A stretch of 64,000 bases of DNA from Chelativorans xinjiangensis (GTDB lineage Bacteria > Pseudomonadota > Alphaproteobacteria > Rhizobiales > Rhizobiaceae), in assembly GCF_009812055.1 (NCBI RefSeq), contig NZ_WQNH01000004.1, positions 62,001-126,000 on the forward strand, written 5' to 3'. The notes under the pieces are model-generated. The model had not been told where the DNA came from and did no database searches. It saw nothing but the letters and a program-made list of their open reading frames with translations. A program made the position numbers and the translations under genes. Of the stretch, positions 1,105-25,247 are shown in pieces (position 1 is the first letter of the stretch; every line of letters begins with the position of its first letter).

Positions 1105-2295
1105 GTGCCTGAGACCTCGGTCCGCAACTTCAACATCAACTTCGGCCCGCAACATCCGGCTGCGCATGGCGTCTTGCGTCTTGTGCTGGAGCTGGATGGC
1201 GAGGTGGTCGAGCGTGTCGATCCGCATATCGGGCTCTTGCACCGCGGCACCGAGAAGCTGATCGAGCACAAGACCTACCTGCAGGCCGTGCCTTATTTCG
1301 ACCGGCTCGACTATGTGGCGCCGATGAACCAGGAGCACGCCTTCGCGCTTGCCGTGGAGCGGCTTTTGGGCATCGACGTGCCGATCCGCGGGCAGTTGAT
1401 CCGCGTGCTCTACTCCGAGATCGGCCGCATCCTGAACCACCTTCTGAACGTCACCACGCAGGCCATGGACGTCGGCGCGCTCACGCCTCCTCTGTGGGGG
1501 TTCGAGGAGCGCGAGAAGCTGATGGTGTTCTACGAGCGCGCCTCCGGCTCGCGCATGCACGCGGCCTATTTCCGCCCCGGCGGCGTGCACCAGGACTTGC
1601 CGGAAAAGCTGGTGGAAGACATCGGCAAGTGGATCGATCCGTTCCTGAAGACGGTCGCCGACCTCGACGAGCTTCTGACCAACAACCGCATCTTCAAGCA
1701 GCGCAATGTCGATATCGGCGTCGTCAGCCTCGAAGATGCGTGGGCGTGGGGTTTCTCCGGCGTCATGGTGCGCGGTTCGGGCGCTGCCTGGGACCTGCGC
1801 AAGAGCCAGCCCTACGAGTGCTATCCCGAGATGGAGTTCGACATCCCGGTGGGCAAGAACGGCGACAATTACGACCGCTATCTCCTGCGCATGGAGGAGA
1901 TGCGCCAGTCGGCCCGCATCATGCGGCAATGCGTGGAGCGGCTGCTTGGCACAGAGCGCGCCGGGCCGGTGTCGAACGAGGACGGCAAGGTCGTGCCGCC
2001 CAAGCGCGGCGCCATGAAGCGCTCCATGGAAGCCCTCATCCACCACTTCAAGCTCTACACGGAAGGCTATCACGTGCCGGCCGGCGAGGTGTATGCGGCG
2101 GTGGAGGCTCCCAAGGGCGAGTTCGGCGTCTATCTGGTCTCCGACGGCACCAACATGCCCTATCGCTGCAAGCTCAGGGCGCCCGGTTTCGCCCACCTCC
2201 AGGCGATGGACTTCATGTGTCGCGGCCACCTTCTTGCCGATATCGCCGCCGTGCTCGGCTCCCTCGACATCGTGTTTGGTGAGGTAGACAGATAA
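1105..2295 (+). CDS. nuoD: NADH-quinone oxidoreductase subunit D
   Basis: A 396-residue NuoD (49-kDa subunit), which forms the quinone-binding pocket with NuoB and NuoH. The start is a GTG preceded by an aggaaggtg ribosome site; the next residues match the conserved NuoD N-terminus, including [14 protein letters not shown]. Other family blocks are [12 protein letters not shown] and the C-terminal segment ending DIVFGEVDR. The stop codon overlaps the nuoE start (TAATG), which suggests translational coupling. Confidence 0.97.
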
Positions 2296-18290: not shown

Positions 18291-18472
18291 GAAAAATTTT
18301 GCGTTACCACAGCCCAGTTACCACTTTAGCCTTCTCGTTCGCCGGCTGGTCACGCAGAGGGCGGGGGAGGTGGGGTAAGCGCCGGGTTTTCAACCCGTCA
18401 TGAAATAGCTAAGAAGCCTGACGATATCTCTGGCGGGGATGATTCCGCCCCCTCATGCTCACGGACCGGTTC

Positions 18473-19801
18473 ATGCGACTGTCGCGCTACTTCCTGCCCA
18501 TCCTGAAGGAGAATCCCCGCGAGGCGGAAATCGTCTCGCACCGGCTGATGCTGCGCGCCGGCATGATCCGCCAGCAGGCCGCCGGCAGCTTCTCCTGGCT
18601 GCCCTTGGGCAAGCGCGTCCTCGACAAGGTGTGCCGGGTCGTCCGCGAGGAGCAGGACCGTGCCGGCGCGCACGAAATCCTGATGCCCACCATCCAGTCG
18701 GCGGACCTTTGGATGGAGAGCGGCCGCTACGACGACTACGGCAAGGAGATGCTGCGCATCACCGACCGGCACGAGCGCAAGATGCTCTACGGCCCCACCA
18801 ACGAAGAGATGGTGACGGACATCTTCCGCGCCTACGTGAAGTCCTACAAGGACCTGCCGCTGAACCTCTACCACATCCAGTGGAAGTTCCGAGACGAGGT
18901 GCGCCCGCGCTTCGGCGTCATGCGCTCGCGCGAGTTCCTGATGAAGGACGCCTACACCTTCGACCTGGATTTTGAAGGCGCCAAGGCGGCTTACAACCGC
19001 ATGTTCGTCGCCTACCTGAGAACGTTCGCGCGCCTCGGGCTGCAGGCCATTCCCATGCGCGCGGAGACGGGCCCCATCGGCGGCGACTTGAGCCACGAAT
19101 TCATCATCCTCGCCACAACGGGTGAGAGCGAGGTGTTCTGCCACAAGGACTTCCTCGGCCTTTCCGTGCCGGGGGAGAATGTGGATTTCGCCGACGACGC
19201 CGAGATCGCCGGCATCGTCTCCGAATGGACCGCGCCCTATGCGGCGACGGACGACATGCACGACGAGGCGGCCTGGGCCGACGTGCCGGAGGACAAGCGG
19301 CTTTCCGCGCGCGGCATCGAGGTGGGCCATATCTTCCACTTCGGCACCAAATATTCCAAACCCATGAAGGCCAGCGTTACGGGGCCGGACGGGCAGGAGC
19401 ATTTCGTCTCCATGGGCTCCTACGGCATCGGGCCGAGCCGGCTCGCGGCCGCCATCATCGAGGCGAGCCACGACGACAACGGCATCATCTGGCCGGAAAG
19501 TGTCGCGCCCTTCGACATGGCGCTCGTCAACATGAAGGTGGGCGATACGGCGTGCGACCGCGTTTGCGAGGAACTCTATGCCGGGCTGACGGCGGCTGGC
19601 CGGGATGTGCTCTACGACGACACCGACCAGCGCGCCGGCGCCAAATTCGCCACCGCCGATCTGATCGGCCTGCCCTGGCAGATCGTCGTCGGCCCGCGCG
19701 GCGTGGCTGGCGGCGAGGTGGAAGTGAAAAACCGCGCCACCGGTGAACGCGAGGCGATGCCGGTTGCATCGGTGGCTGACAGGTTCGGCGCCAGCGCATG
19801 A
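18473..19801 (+). CDS. proS: proline--tRNA ligase, short alphaproteobacterial form
   Basis: A 442-residue class II aminoacyl-tRNA synthetase that charges tRNA-Pro. It begins [20 protein letters not shown], shows the class II blocks around [34 protein letters not shown] and SYGIGPSRL, and ends with an anticodon-binding domain. It lacks the editing insertion domain of the E. coli enzyme, which fits the roughly 440-residue form of alphaproteobacteria. An in-frame ATG at 18455 would add six residues; 18473 gives the family length. Upstream, 18018-18472 holds no gene other than the predicted small RNA. Confidence 0.95.
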
Positions 19802-21093
19802 GCGCGACCGCGGAAGCCAGCGTCAACGCCAACGCAGAGGCCGGGCCCTTCTCGCGGTTCGAACGTCTCGTCGCCTGGCGCTATCTGCGTTCGCGGCGCA
19901 AGGAGGCGGTGGTTTCCGTCATCGCCTCCATCTCCTTCATCGGCATCATGCTGGGCGTGGCCACCCTGATTGTCGTCATGGCGGTGATGAACGGTTTCCG
20001 CGCCGAGCTGCTCACCCGCATCCTCGGCGTCAACGGCCACCTGATCGTGCAGCCGGTCGATTTGCCGCTCGACGATTACGAAGCCGTTGCCGGGCGCATT
20101 GCTGAAGTGCCGGGCGTCAAGCTCGCCGTCCCGTTGGTGGAGGGGCAGGTGTTGGCGAGCGGGCGCAGCGGCCAGGGCACCGGCGCCCTCATCCGCGGCG
20201 TGCGCGCCGAGGACCTCACCGAGATGGACCTCGTGTCAGAGCACATCCGCCACGGCTCGCTGATCGATTTCGCCGCCGGGGAGGGGGTGGCGGTCGGCTC
20301 GCGCCTCGCCCAGACGCTGGGCATTGCGCTTGGCGATCCCATTACGCTGGTCTCGCCGGAAGGCGACGTCACGCCCTTCGGCACGACGCCGCGCGTCAAG
20401 TCCTATCCGGTGACGGCGATCTTCGAGATCGGCATGTCGGAATACGATGCCTCCCTCGTTTATATGCCCATCGAGGAAGCACAGCTCTACCTGAACGTGG
20501 AGGGCCTGGCGCGGATCATCGAAGTCTTCGTCGACGACCCCGACAACGTGGACGCGCTGCGGCCGCTGGTCGAGGAAGCGGCCCAGCGCCCGGTCTCCAT
20601 CAGCGATTGGCGCCAGCGCAACCAAACCTTCTTCTCCGCGCTCGAGGTGGAGCGCAACGTCATGTTCATGATCCTGACGATGATCGTGCTGGTGGCGGCC
20701 TTGAACATCATTTCCGGCATGATCATGCTGGTGAAGGACAAGGGGCACGACATCGCCATCCTGCGCACCATGGGGGCGACCAGCGGTGCCATCATGCGCA
20801 TCTTCCTGATGGCGGGGGCGGCGATCGGTGTCGCCGGCACGATCGCCGGCTTCATCCTCGGCACGTTGCTTTGCCTCAACGTGGAATCGATCCGCCTGTT
20901 CTTCTCCTGGCTGTCCGGCACGACGATTTTCGATCCGGAAGTCTATTTCCTCAGCCAACTGCCGGCCGACATGGAGACGGGCGAGACGTTTTCCGTGGTG
21001 CTGATGGCGCTATTGCTGTCCTTCCTCGCCACGCTCTTTCCCGCCTGGCGCGCCTCGCGCCTCGATCCCGTCGAAGCCCTGAGATACGAATAG
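19798..21093 (+). CDS. lolC: lipoprotein-releasing ABC transporter permease LolC/LolE
   Basis: A 431-residue inner-membrane permease of the LolCDE machine that releases lipoproteins for transfer to the outer membrane. It shows a first membrane helix near residues 38-60 (family start [19 protein letters not shown]), a large periplasmic domain (about 65-285) and an FtsX-like block of three helices at the C-terminus, with [19 protein letters not shown]-like sequence. The start overlaps the proS stop (ATGA). As in many alphaproteobacteria, one LolC/E-type permease is paired with lolD. Confidence 0.9.
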
Positions 21094-21109
21094 TTCGAGA
21101 TAGGAATAG

Positions 21110-21796
21110 ATGGCCGACAGCGTGCTGGAACTCAAAGCAGTCGAACACCGATATGTGCAGGGGCCGAAGGAACTGACCATCCTCAGCGGCGCCGATTTCA
21201 CGCTGACGCCCGGCGAGATGGTGGCGCTGGTGGCGCCGTCCGGCACGGGGAAGTCGACGCTCCTGCATATCGCCGGCCTCTTGGAGCATCCCGACGGCGG
21301 CGACGTCGTCGTCAACGGCCAGTCCTGCGCCGGCCTTTCGGACGACAGGCGCACGGCGATCCGCCGCAGCGAGATCGGCTTCGTCTACCAGTTCCACCAC
21401 CTCCTGCCGGAATTTTCCGCTCGGGAAAACGTGATGATGCCGCAGCTCATCGCCGGCCTCCAACCGGCCGAAGCGATGGAACGGGCGGACCAGCTTCTCG
21501 CCTATATGAAGATCGGCGATCGCGCCACCCACCGGCCGGCCGAGCTTTCCGGCGGTGAGCAGCAGCGCGTGGCCATCGCCCGCGCCGTCGCCAACGCGCC
21601 GCTCGTTCTTCTGGCCGACGAACCGACGGGGAACCTCGATCCGACGACGGCGGGCTACGTGTTCGAGGCGCTGGAGGCGCTGGTGCGCCAGTCCGGCCTC
21701 GCCGCCCTGATCGCCACGCACAACGAAGGCCTCGCCGCCCGCATGGACCGCCGCGTGACGCTTTCGGAAGGCAAGGTGGTGGACATGCCGGCATAG
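21110..21796 (+). CDS. lolD: lipoprotein-releasing ABC transporter ATP-binding protein
   Basis: A 228-residue ATPase that powers the Lol system with LolC. The Walker A motif APSGTGKST is at residues 42-50, the signature [14 protein letters not shown] lies near 145, and Walker B is [11 protein letters not shown] near 165. It sits 16 bases after lolC. Its TAG stop overlaps the first bases of a palindromic intergenic repeat. Confidence 0.93.
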
Positions 21797-21989: not shown

Positions 21990-22340
21990 TCAGGCATGGA
22001 TGAGGATGTTGACGAGCCTGCCGAACGGGTCGCGCACGAAAAACCGCCGCACGCCCCAGGGCTCGTCCGCCGGCCCGTATTCCACCGCAAATCCCGCCTT
22101 CCTCACGCGCTCCAGCGCCGCCTCCAGATCGTCCACCTCGATGGAAAGGTCGGGCACGGGCGTTCCCGAGCCGCCCTCGACGGCGAAGCTGACCTGGGTA
22201 CGCGCCTCTTCGCGCGTACCGTAGGTGACGATCCAGCCATGATCCATGAGCACGTCGAGGCCCAGCACGTCTCCATAGAAGCGCTGCGCTGCCGCGACGT
22301 CCTCGGTGCCGATGTTGGCGACAATCCGTTTGACCTTCAC
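21990..22340 (-). CDS. VOC (glyoxalase/bleomycin-resistance) family protein
   Basis: A 116-residue single-domain VOC protein. It shows the usual opening KRIVANIGTEDVAAAQRFYG, a middle segment FAVEGGSGTPVPDLSIEVDD, and the end GVRRFFVRDPFGRLVNILIH with the conserved DPFGRLVNI block. The start is GTG, preceded by a clear GGAGGT seven bases away. The substrate cannot be told from sequence; the family covers metal-dependent isomerases, dioxygenases and binding proteins. It points toward lolD, with two repeats between. Confidence 0.8.
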   Translation of the reverse strand: MKVKRIVANIGTEDVAAAQRFYGDVLGLDVLMDHGWIVTYGTREEARTQVSFAVEGGSGTPVPDLSIEVDDLEAALERVRKAGFAVEYGPADEPWGVRRFFVRDPFGRLVNILIHA

Positions 22341-22515: not shown

Positions 22516-22544
22516 TTGACATGAACATAACTAGAACATATAAG
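22516..22544 (+). promoter_or_regulatory. sigma-70 promoter with embedded LexA (SOS) box
   Basis: TTGACA (22516-22521), 17-base spacer, TATAAG (22539-22544). Inside the spacer lies GAACATAACTAGAAC (22523-22537), an exact GAAC-N7-GAAC, which is the reverse complement of the alphaproteobacterial LexA site GTTC-N7-GTTC. LexA bound here would block RNA polymerase, so the downstream peptide should be induced by DNA damage. Confidence 0.8.
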
Positions 22545-22587
22545 GATCATATCAAGATCATTTGGCGCTTATCCACAGGAGAGTCCC

Positions 22588-22674
22588 ATGGCCGATCTCA
22601 TTCAGGATGTTGCTTCGCTGGTTGCCGTCAGCTCCTTCATCGTCGTCGTCGCCACCTGGATCGGTGCGCTGTAG
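22588..22674 (+). CDS. 28-aa single-helix membrane peptide under SOS control
   Basis: A 28-residue peptide starting MADLIQDVASLV and ending VVVATWIGAL. Residues 9-28 are almost wholly hydrophobic, so a single membrane helix is likely. The ATG follows a good ribosome site (aggagag) and the gene is framed by a LexA-box promoter and a strong terminator, forming its own transcription unit. The layout resembles Caulobacter SidA, a 29-residue SOS-induced membrane peptide that blocks cell division, but I cannot show homology. A division-inhibitor role is inference. Confidence 0.75.
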   Translation: MADLIQDVASLVAVSSFIVVVATWIGAL

Positions 22675-22684
22675 ATGCAGAAAG

Positions 22685-22710
22685 GAAAGGGCCGCGGAGG
22701 CGGCCCTTTC
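22685..22710. terminator. Strong hairpin terminator after the small peptide
   Basis: Perfect 11-bp stem GAAAGGGCCGC / GCGGCCCTTTC with a GGAG tetraloop. The T run is short (three), but the stem is very GC-rich. It sits between the small peptide gene and the convergent ggt gene, so it may serve both directions. Confidence 0.75.
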
Positions 22711-22735: not shown

Positions 22736-24499
22736 TCAGTCGCCTATAGCCACGCCTTCGCGCCGTGGGTCGGCGCCGCCTTCCAGTCCTTCGGGCGTGA
22801 ATGCGACGCCGTGGAGGCCGGAGGTGAGGTCCGTGATGTCGACCTCGAAGCCGAGCGCTTCAAGCTCGTCGGCGAAGGTTTCGGCAGGCGTGCCGGCTTC
22901 CACGGCGTAGGTGCCGAAGCGGTTGGTCAGGTGCGGCAGGGAGATCGCCTGCTGCATGTCCATGTCCCAGTCGATGAGCGCGATGATCGCGTTGGCGACA
23001 TAAGGAATGATGTTCGAGCCTCCGGGCGATCCGAGCGCAAAGGCGGGTTCTCCGTCTTCGAGGATGATCGTCGGTGCCATGGAGGAGCGTGGGCGCTTGC
23101 CCGGTTCCACCCGGTTGGCCACCGCCTCGCCGTCGCTGTCGGGCGCGAAGGAGAAGTCGGTGAGTTCGTTGTTGAGCAGGAATCCCGCCGCCATCTGCCG
23201 CGAGCCGAAGCCGTTCTCGATGGTGGTGGTGATGGAGGCGATGTTGCCGTCTTCGTCGACGATGACGAAATGCGAGGTGGACGGGCGCTCGGGCTCGAGG
23301 CCGGGAAGCCTGAGTTCGGCCTTGTCCCAGGGCGGCGAGCCGGCCTCGACCTCGTCTTCGGCAAGCGCCGTCGGCCGGCGCAGAAGTGCGGCGCGGCTCT
23401 CCAGATAGTCCTGGTTCAAAAGCCCCTTCGGCATGGAGACGAAGTCGCTGTCGGCCATGTAGAGCCCGCGGTCGGCAAAGGCGAGGCGCGTGGCATCGCC
23501 GATGATGCGCCAGCTTTCCGGGTCGTCCGGCCCGAGCGCCGCAAGGTCGAAATGCGAGACCATGCCGAGGATCTGCCCCACGGTCAGAGCGCCGGAGGAG
23601 GGCGGTCCCATGCCGCAGACCTCGTAGCCGCGATAGGGCGCGCAGACGGCCGGCCGCTCCTTCACCTCGTAGGCCGCCAGGTCTTCGAGGCTGAGGAGAC
23701 CCGGATTGGTCGGGTGGTCCTGCACTGCGGCGACGATCTTCTCGGCGATCTCGCCGGTATAGAAGGCCTCGGAGCCGCCCTCCGCGATCGCCCGCAGCGT
23801 CTCCGCATATTCCGGGTTCTTGAGCTGCGTGCCCTCGGCGAGCGGTTCGCCGTCCGCGTCATAGAAATAAGCCCGCGCCGCTTCCTCCTGGTCGAGCTTG
23901 CCCCGGTCGTTGGCGATCAGCGTGTGAAGCCGCGACGAAACGGCGAAGCCCTCCTCGGCCACTTCGATGGCCGGCGTCAGGAGGTTCGCCCAGTCGAGCT
24001 TCCCATAGCGCTCGTGCACTGTCTCCATCAGCCGCACCGTACCCGGCGTTCCCACCGAGCGGCCGCCGATGACGGCGTCGAAGAAGGCGAGCGGCTCGCC
24101 CTCCTCGTCGAGGAAAAGGTCGGGCGAGGCGGCCATGGGTGCGGTCTCGCGGCCGTCGAAGGTGGTGATCTCGCCGCTTTCCCCATCGTACCAGACGAGG
24201 AACGCACCGCCGCCGAGGCCGGAGGATTGCGGCTCGACGAGGCCGAGCACGGTCTGCACGGCCACCAGCGCGTCCGCCGCGCTTCCGCCCTGCCGCAGCA
24301 CCTCGAGCCCGGCCTCCGCGGCAAGCGGGTTGGCCGCCGCCACCATCTGCCGGCGCGCCGGGACGACCGTCCTTTCCTCGCTGCCGCTGGCGATCTCCGG
24401 CGCCAGCGTATCGGCTGCCTGCTGGGCCGCGGCGGGCAGGCCGAGCGCCAGCCCCACACCCAGCGCCAGCGCGCCGACGGTCAATCCCTTCTCCTGCAT
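22736..24499 (-). CDS. ggt: gamma-glutamyltransferase
   Basis: A 587-residue secreted gamma-glutamyltranspeptidase that cleaves or transfers the gamma-glutamyl group of glutathione in the periplasm. A signal peptide is clear (GLTVGALALGVGLALGLPAAAQ). The conserved region RQMVAAANPLAAEAGLEVLRQGGSA-type sequence follows. The autoprocessing nucleophile is Thr408 in STSHFVIVDEDGN, and the oxyanion region includes GSPGGSNI. The ATG at 24499 has AAGGAG eight bases upstream; an in-frame GTG at 24508 is too close to it. It starts right after lipB on the same strand. Confidence 0.93.
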   Translation of the reverse strand: MQEKGLTVGALALGVGLALGLPAAAQQAADTLAPEIASGSEERTVVPARRQMVAAANPLAAEAGLEVLRQGGSAADALVAVQTVLGLVEPQSSGLGGGAFLVWYDGESGEITTFDGRETAPMAASPDLFLDEEGEPLAFFDAVIGGRSVGTPGTVRLMETVHERYGKLDWANLLTPAIEVAEEGFAVSSRLHTLIANDRGKLDQEEAARAYFYDADGEPLAEGTQLKNPEYAETLRAIAEGGSEAFYTGEIAEKIVAAVQDHPTNPGLLSLEDLAAYEVKERPAVCAPYRGYEVCGMGPPSSGALTVGQILGMVSHFDLAALGPDDPESWRIIGDATRLAFADRGLYMADSDFVSMPKGLLNQDYLESRAALLRRPTALAEDEVEAGSPPWDKAELRLPGLEPERPSTSHFVIVDEDGNIASITTTIENGFGSRQMAAGFLLNNELTDFSFAPDSDGEAVANRVEPGKRPRSSMAPTIILEDGEPAFALGSPGGSNIIPYVANAIIALIDWDMDMQQAISLPHLTNRFGTYAVEAGTPAETFADELEALGFEVDITDLTSGLHGVAFTPEGLEGGADPRREGVAIGD

Positions 24500-24500
24500 G

Positions 24501-25247
24501 TCACGCACTCCTTGCCAATGCCCCGTCCCGCCCGGCTTCTGCCGGCCCGAAGACCTCCTCGAAGGCCTGTTTCAGCGCCACGTCGAAATCGGCCAGCGCC
24601 ACCGGCAACCCGAGATCGACCAGGCTGGTGATGCCGAAGCCGGGAATCCCGCAGGGCACGATGCCCGAGTAGTGCGAAAGGTCCGGCTCGATATTGACGG
24701 CGATACCGTGAAAGCTCACCCAGCGGCGCAGGCGGATGCCGATGGCGGCGATCTTGTCCTCCATCGGCGTGCCGTCCGGCAGCGGCGGCTTGTCCGGCCG
24801 CACGACCCACACGCCGACGCGGCCCGCCCGTCGCTCGCCCTTGACGTTGAAGCGGGCAAGGCTGGCGATGATCCATTCTTCGAGCGCGGTGACGAAGGCG
24901 CGCACGTCCTCGCGCCGCTGCTTCAGATCGAGCATCACATAGGCCACGCGCTGACCCGGCCCGTGATAGGTGTATTCGCCCCCGCGCCCCGCCTTATGCA
25001 CCGGAAAGCGCCCCGCATCGAGCAGGTCCCCGGGTGCCGCGCTCGTGCCCGCCGTATAAAGGGGAGGGTGCTCGACCAGCCACACCATCTCGCCCGCCTG
25101 GCCGGCGCGGATGGCGTCGGCGCGCGCCTCCATGAAGGCAAGCGCCGTCTCATAAGGGGTCAGCCCGGGTTCGACGCGCCACTCCACCGGCGGGGCCGCC
25201 GCGCGCGGGTGAAAGGCCTGAGCGGGTGGTGCGGCCGTCTCATTCAT
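24501..25247 (-). CDS. lipB: lipoyl(octanoyl) transferase
   Basis: A 248-residue enzyme that moves octanoyl from acyl carrier protein to the E2 and GcvH proteins, the first step of lipoate attachment. Family motifs are [20 protein letters not shown] and, with the catalytic Cys, [16 protein letters not shown]; the preceding [15 protein letters not shown] is also conserved. I chose the ATG at 25247 rather than the upstream one at 25325. One base separates its stop from ggt, which is not an obvious functional partner. Confidence 0.93.

Follow-up and report, generated by a model that had tools for sequence, protein, structure and literature searches.

Does the short open reading frame (ORF) behind a LexA-type promoter of Chelativorans xinjiangensis encode an SOS-induced inhibitor of cell division, comparable to SidA of Caulobacter? 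The question arises from a 64-kb stretch of contig NZ_WQNH01000004.1 (the window, in the following), in which the original prediction read the region 22516-22710 as a complete gene for an SOS-induced membrane peptide. Our analysis supports this reading: the frame and the operator were observed, and from them we infer induction, membrane insertion, division arrest and a target at FtsW or FtsN. We consider it likely, without regarding it as settled, that the locus is a gene standing by itself and encoding a 28-residue peptide which passes the inner membrane once, is repressed by LexA and belongs to the SidA type of SOS division inhibitors; damage induction, membrane insertion and arrest are the inferred parts of this interpretation.

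The elements of the locus and its neighbors are compiled in Table 1. The promoter that had been described, TTGACA and TATAAG separated by 17 nt with an exact GAAC-N7-GAAC in the spacer, can be read directly from the window, and the ribosome site and the 28-codon frame are present as well. The 11-bp stem of the claimed terminator is present as well; a U-tract is missing, and the terminator scan was silent. A consensus scan of the window listed neither the promoter at 22516-22544 nor, as a terminator, the hairpin. The promoter was missed because the rule requires the second hexamer to end in T, whereas it ends in G here; the hairpin was not scored because CGGAG comes next, without a run of T. 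The leader furthermore contains TTATCCACA, which we take to be the DnaA-box consensus. The motif TTATNCACA (N being C or G) is exact in 10 of the 16 loci of the same genus and has its sole occurrence within the window here. It is possible that the replication initiator DnaA constitutes a second input to the peptide gene in the window's genus, a suggestion made from the motif without binding data.

Table 1. Coordinates of the predicted gene, its neighbors, and the homologs lacking the box.
Feature	Stretch	Position	Strand	Basis or remark
-35 element TTGACA	window	22516-22521	+	sequence; TTGAC in 16/16 same-genus loci
LexA operator GAAC-N7-GAAC, GAACATAACTAGAAC (predicted, no binding data)	window	22523-22537	+	within 17-nt promoter spacer
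-10 element TATAAG	window	22539-22544	+	sequence; absent from consensus-scan list
Two more degenerate LexA half-sites, GATC at 22545 and 22556	window	22545-22559	+	11-bp register with the box
DnaA-box consensus TTATCCACA (presumed), in leader just 5' of Shine-Dalgarno	window	22569-22577	+	sequence match
Shine-Dalgarno AGGAG	window	22577-22581	+	sequence
28-codon ORF, ATG at 22588, TAG at 22672-22674, product MADLIQDVASLVAVSSFIVVVATWIGAL	window	22588-22674	+	sequence, homologs, codon selection
Hairpin 3' of ORF, 11-bp stem 22685-22695/22700-22710, no U-tract	window	22685-22710	+	-27.2 kcal/mol, z -4.92
proS (prolyl-tRNA synthetase), conserved upstream neighbor	window	18455..19801	+	Pfam tRNA-synt_2b, HGTP_anticodon; 71% identity to S. 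meliloti ProS
lolC-type lipoprotein-releasing permease, conserved upstream neighbor	window	19798..21093	+	Pfam MacB_PCD, FtsX; 71% identity to S. meliloti protein
lolD-type ABC ATPase, conserved upstream neighbor	window	21110..21796	+	Pfam ABC_tran; 78% identity to S. meliloti protein
VOC/glyoxalase-family gene between lolD and peptide gene	window	21990..22340	-	Pfam Glyoxalase; only part of window's genus; 10/206 loci
Gamma-glutamyltranspeptidase, convergent downstream neighbor	window	22736..24508	-	Pfam G_glu_transpept, E 1.4e-149
Box-less homolog	L061	3001-3087	+	Pseudochrobactrum plasmid; neighbors ERF family, NinB, integrase
Box-less homolog	L054	1501-1596	+	neighbor DUF3799
Box-less homolog	L309	2012-2095	+	neighbors DUF3799, RecT, IrrE-like
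Box-less homolog	L311	1951-2040	-	neighbor S24 peptidase-like
Box-less homologs	L310 and L313		-	

Homology searches show the peptide gene to be conserved among rhizobia and related bacteria. A protein search of relatives found a homolog in 34 of 101, with 16 of 16 inside the window's genus, and a DNA search gave matches in 27 of 61 genomes, among them short ones at E 1e-4 to 0.01. At a cutoff of E<=1, profile A1 has matches in 337 of the 394 genomes searched within the family, in 168 of 397 at the level of the order and in 107 of 385 at that of the class, where the wider profile A2 reaches 166 of 385; these counts include many weak matches due to chance. Outside the order, A2 matches with E below 0.001 occur in only two genomes (G1098 and G914), and in a phylum-wide draw at E<=0.01 every one of the 13 matching genomes, out of 180, lies inside the order. 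Of 50 genomes of the family, mostly chosen for weak matches, 48 match at E<=3; the 30 loci retrieved from these genomes have the exact box in 28 cases, L250 and L264 being without it. Class-level matches in long frames or lacking the box (such as L094, L097, L107-L109, L113, L114, L144, L145 and L147) were judged to be chance.

Several of the counts below refer to 91 selected loci, chosen by hand from the best loci of each search and hence biased to good matches. They are short-frame matches from the relatives, family, order and class searches plus two records of a plasmid collection. Excluded were near duplicates (L032, L066, L074-L076, L078, L085, L087-L091, L103, L111, L249), contig-edge loci (L070, L072), long-frame matches, the class-level loci L112/L141, L142 and L155, and the box-less copies. 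In G132, a genome with 5% contamination, there are two good profile matches, C38 and C160 (L314), with an exact box at L314.

What kind of peptide does the frame encode? Its best 19-residue Kyte-Doolittle mean of 2.2 agrees with the single hydrophobic helix that had been claimed and that we expect of a SidA-type inhibitor of about 29 residues; membrane location and insertion are inferred. Among 88 distinct peptides F17 is invariant, residue 7 is D in 87 and E in one, and residue 24 is W in 59 and replaced in 29. Conservation along one helical face is not significant in this set (p = 0.15). TisB, a LexA-controlled peptide of about the same size with a single transmembrane (TM) helix, has a charged, amphipathic helix. 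For DinQ, the accessible part of its description reports an SOS-regulated toxic single-TM peptide (PMC3567139). An SOS peptide of this kind would depolarize the inner membrane and slow growth, with no specific inhibition of the divisome, and it would have the size, the single hydrophobic helix and the LexA control in common with the family studied here. We regard it as an unlikely competitor of the division inhibitor: the charged helix that it calls for is not found, as residues 11-24 are uncharged in 87 of the 88 peptides (in the remaining one the numbering is displaced by a longer N-terminus), and a helix core without charges argues against a TisB-type pore. A crude sigma-70-type scan revealed no antisense promoter into the ORF; one promoter-like site on the minus strand (22575-22546) is directed away from it.

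The genomic neighborhood was examined by using the neighbor proteins of S. meliloti as queries on 206 loci, a set that includes duplicates, a few chance loci and two lexA loci. Flanks were mostly 1.5 kb long, up to 3 kb for 80 Mesorhizobium-type loci, and longer in L061, L281 and L282. Within them we found lolD (160 loci) and lolC (150) most often, then proS (67), dnaE (58), ggt (30) and the VOC gene (10). The usual order, as observed, is proS-lolC-lolD-peptide-dnaE, and wherever this was examined dnaE follows directly downstream of the peptide gene on the same strand. The window has proS, lolC and lolD (18455-21796), followed by the VOC gene. Given the place of dnaE at these 58 loci, the small ORF and its LexA promoter could serve dnaE as its regulatory leader or transcription unit, adjusting the DNA polymerase III alpha subunit during the SOS response. 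This we consider improbable: dnaE was not found in the 64-kb window, nor in any of the 80 Mesorhizobium-type loci within flanks of up to 3 kb, so that box and peptide outlast the separation from dnaE. Selection on the amino acids and box-less copies among phage-like genes, both treated below, also stand against it.

The interpretation of the box itself requires some caution. Taken alone, GAAC-N7-GAAC occurs near chance frequency, with 2 instances in the window versus 1.49 expected and 145 genome-wide versus 117 for the reversed pattern, and its frequency was dropped as evidence. The fuller pattern TTGAC-N2-6-GAACA-N6-GAAC is found once in the 5.69-Mb genome, at the window locus, and its reversed control not at all. 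It is conservation among related genomes that puts promoter and box far beyond chance. The exact box is observed in 14 of 16 loci of the window's genus, upstream of the ORF in 80 of 80 Mesorhizobium-type loci, and within 120 bp upstream in 84 of the 91 selected loci, leaving seven without it; random 123-bp stretches drawn from the same loci contain it in 4 of 3948 cases. The distance between box and ATG differs among loci, and the position of the box within the promoter is kept. A fortuitous box ahead of a constitutively expressed small membrane protein, which the near-chance frequency of the bare motif would allow, is very hard to maintain against the counts of 84/91 and 80/80 and against a box retained despite the varying distance to the start.

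Further half-sites continue at an 11-bp step in the same 84 loci: allowing at most one mismatch to GAAC, they are present at +22 in 50 and at +33 in 37 of the 84; a few other half-site offsets score 13 to 20. An exact GAAC occurs at +22 in 17 loci and at +33 in none. The lexA gene of the same genome is preceded by the same GAAC-N7-GAAC box. Twelve further stretches around A/T-rich boxes in this genome were inspected by eye for SOS genes; we read uvrA and ssb with two boxes between them in L288 and a dinB-like gene in L287, and recognized no SOS gene by eye in the other ten. The LexA operator expected of a SidA-type inhibitor is thus present at the level of sequence, and binding of LexA to it is inferred without binding data.

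The ORF itself evolves as a coding sequence. The 80 Mesorhizobium-type loci (those retained from 147 confirmed ones) yield 55 distinct ORFs, for which pS is 0.380 and pN 0.045, a ratio of 0.119, with heterozygosities of 2.18, 0.04 and 7.47 at codon positions 1, 2 and 3; in the other frames pN/pS exceeds 1. Within the window's genus, 15 ORFs give a ratio of 0.306, compared with 1.28 and 2.14 in the other frames. According to these measures the 28-codon ORF is a real gene under selection at the amino-acid level. The two comparisons among relatives that the original prediction had proposed, for synonymous-biased substitution in the 28 codons and for conservation of the box, were hence both passed. 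A non-coding RNA or chance ORF, for which little more than the short length speaks, can practically be dismissed in view of pN/pS, the codon-position pattern and a length of exactly 28 residues in 71 of the 91 selected loci.

Six homologs possess no exact box in at least 130 bp upstream (Table 1). Five of their six peptides start with MRDL, and four of the copies (L061, L054, L309 and L311) sit among phage-like genes. A second copy in the genome of L054 (L312) does have the exact box, and the genes next to it were read as lolD and dnaE. A tblastn search of phage records yielded no match, and two scans of IMG/VR yielded 29 and 27 pattern matches, none of them a confirmed relative; the presence of the peptide gene in free phages is therefore unproven. 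If phages captured the gene repeatedly, this would be consistent with an action of the peptide on growth or division of the host.

Beyond the order, the strong-promoter pattern was sought in 40 chosen genomes of the class: it occurs at 11 places in 10 of them and is absent from the other 30, while the reversed control gives none. Six of these places (L295, L299, L301, L302, L303 and L305) run into short hydrophobic ORFs, five of which directly precede dnaE; four of the five (L299, L301-L303) also directly follow lolD. The remaining five places comprise two glutathione S-transferase-like proteins, two other proteins and one without an obvious gene. The class-level A2 matches L141, L142 and L155 also precede dnaE, with lolD absent from the flank; their box is exact in L141 and L155 and imperfect in L142. 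The dnaE regions of Cereibacter sphaeroides and Methylobacterium bullatum, which may not hold the main dnaE copies, have no exact box within 1.5 kb upstream and, on this comparison, speak against a class-wide rule. Three single loci may be described separately. At L295, from 1501, the ORF behind a strong LexA promoter is hydrophobic and 28 to 30 residues long; it bears no visible likeness to the peptide family, and its flank has neither dnaE nor lolD. At L297 and L298, likewise from 1501 and in two genomes of one genus, such a promoter precedes the glutathione S-transferase-like protein. At L142 (about 1483-1584, minus strand) the peptide ahead of dnaE reads MNPVTEDVLSAGALISFTLMVAMWARLIEVVQLG, behind the imperfect box.

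The original prediction also held that gene callers easily miss a frame of this size; this agrees with the S. meliloti record CP090106.1, whose gene table, self-described as incomplete, lists nothing at the peptide locus (1486770-1486853). That record (L281) is labeled as plasmid pSymB, and with 3.7 Mb and both proS and dnaE it is chromosome-like in size and content. The window peptide matched no family model in Pfam, NCBIfam or PHROGs. In PHROGs, one box-less copy gave one weak match (E 0.026) and the other three queries none. Three matches to Ran-binding protein 10 in a PDB profile search, the best at E 1.3, were judged to be chance. A literature search restricted to titles and the beginnings of abstracts, with few subscription papers covered, found no SOS division inhibitor for rhizobia, and with the same scarcity of subscription papers no description of a 28-residue peptide family in rhizobia. 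Expression or phenotype data for the family were not found. The S. meliloti stress RNA EcpR1, which has an elongation phenotype, was ruled out by its genomic place: the accessible part of its report puts it between divK-pleD and rpmG (PMC4414408), and it is therefore a different locus. What the gene offers is an exactly defined candidate of 28 codons that recurs from genome to genome and that the family models tried do not see.

If the SidA-type interpretation is correct, the following mechanism may be proposed. LexA would cover the promoter spacer and perhaps also the half-sites phased by 11 bp over the -10 element and the start; DNA damage would clear LexA and permit a burst of peptide from the strong promoter. 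By an inferred topology, the segment ahead of the near-invariant D7 would stay on the cytoplasmic face of the inner membrane, and the helix, with the invariant F17 and usually W24, would dock on a membrane partner in the late divisome, most likely FtsW, or else FtsN or FtsI. Such a partner would be held inactive and cells would elongate until the damage is repaired. That FtsW, FtsN or FtsI is the target of the window peptide is inferred by analogy.

Several small inhibitors of known function invite comparison, here on the basis of those portions of the sources that were available. DidA of Caulobacter is likewise a small single-TM division inhibitor acting after DNA damage; unlike the peptide of the window it has 71 residues, is driven by DriD and is independent of the SOS response (PMC4211646). 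YneA, ChiZ and SosA from other phyla are SOS-induced single-TM division inhibitors that have been modeled on FtsW; a LysM domain distinguishes YneA and an extended helix SosA (PMC13396833), whereas the window peptide is nearly all helix. DinQ shares LexA control, a single TM helix and similar size (PMC3567139); from it and TisB, both of E. coli, the family differs by a helix core free of charges, and the crude scan gave no hint of an antisense RNA. SEP6 of S. meliloti has under 30 residues and a predicted TM helix, was found in the membrane/ribosome pellet and is conserved in Hyphomicrobiales (PMC10117765). It may be the same peptide as the window family; neither sequence nor place has been compared.

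The closest comparison is SidA, described in the accessible text as a 29-residue inner-membrane peptide acting on FtsW (PMC4211646) and under LexA control in Caulobacter crescentus (PMC4211646, PMC12700426). Its function was shown for SidA alone, and the likeness to the peptide family is stated without a sequence comparison. The place of its gene can be approached by locus-tag arithmetic from sources that were likewise available in part. The gene sidA is CCNA_02004 (PMC11034885) and CCNA_02005 a nucleoside hydrolase (PMC3667746); dnaE and recN were numbered CC1926 and CC1983 (PMC1839093), and recN is ccna_02062 (PMC12700426). With a tag offset of 79 at recN, and with 02004 and 02005 occupied, dnaE is therefore most simply CCNA_02003, adjoining sidA; a smaller offset would shift it a gene or so away. 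Hence sidA probably neighbors dnaE, as far as this arithmetic can tell without a map, and the place of the peptide family between lolD and dnaE fits the inferred one, a point in favor of the SidA-type reading that the original prediction had not foreseen. SidA and the family are alike in size, in the LexA box (with binding inferred) and probably in the dnaE neighbor, and unlike in that the other neighbor of sidA is the nucleoside hydrolase, not lolD, and that the window gene has no adjoining dnaE. With sequence homology to SidA uncompared and adjacency resting on arithmetic, we regard the peptide as most likely the positional counterpart of SidA in Rhizobiales.

A wider hypothesis, for which we see the balance as even, is that SidA belongs, as a single branch, to an SOS checkpoint gene that the Alphaproteobacteria inherited from their ancestor, set in its place before dnaE, mostly unannotated, with a strong promoter and LexA half-sites every 11 bp, and captured repeatedly, without the LexA box, by temperate phages into their recombination operons, where it would act as a brake on division of the host. 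Should the SidA-type reading be right, SidA would no longer be the case of one genus: much of a bacterial class would have the gene, and its place, operator and consensus (D7 and F17) could all be tested.
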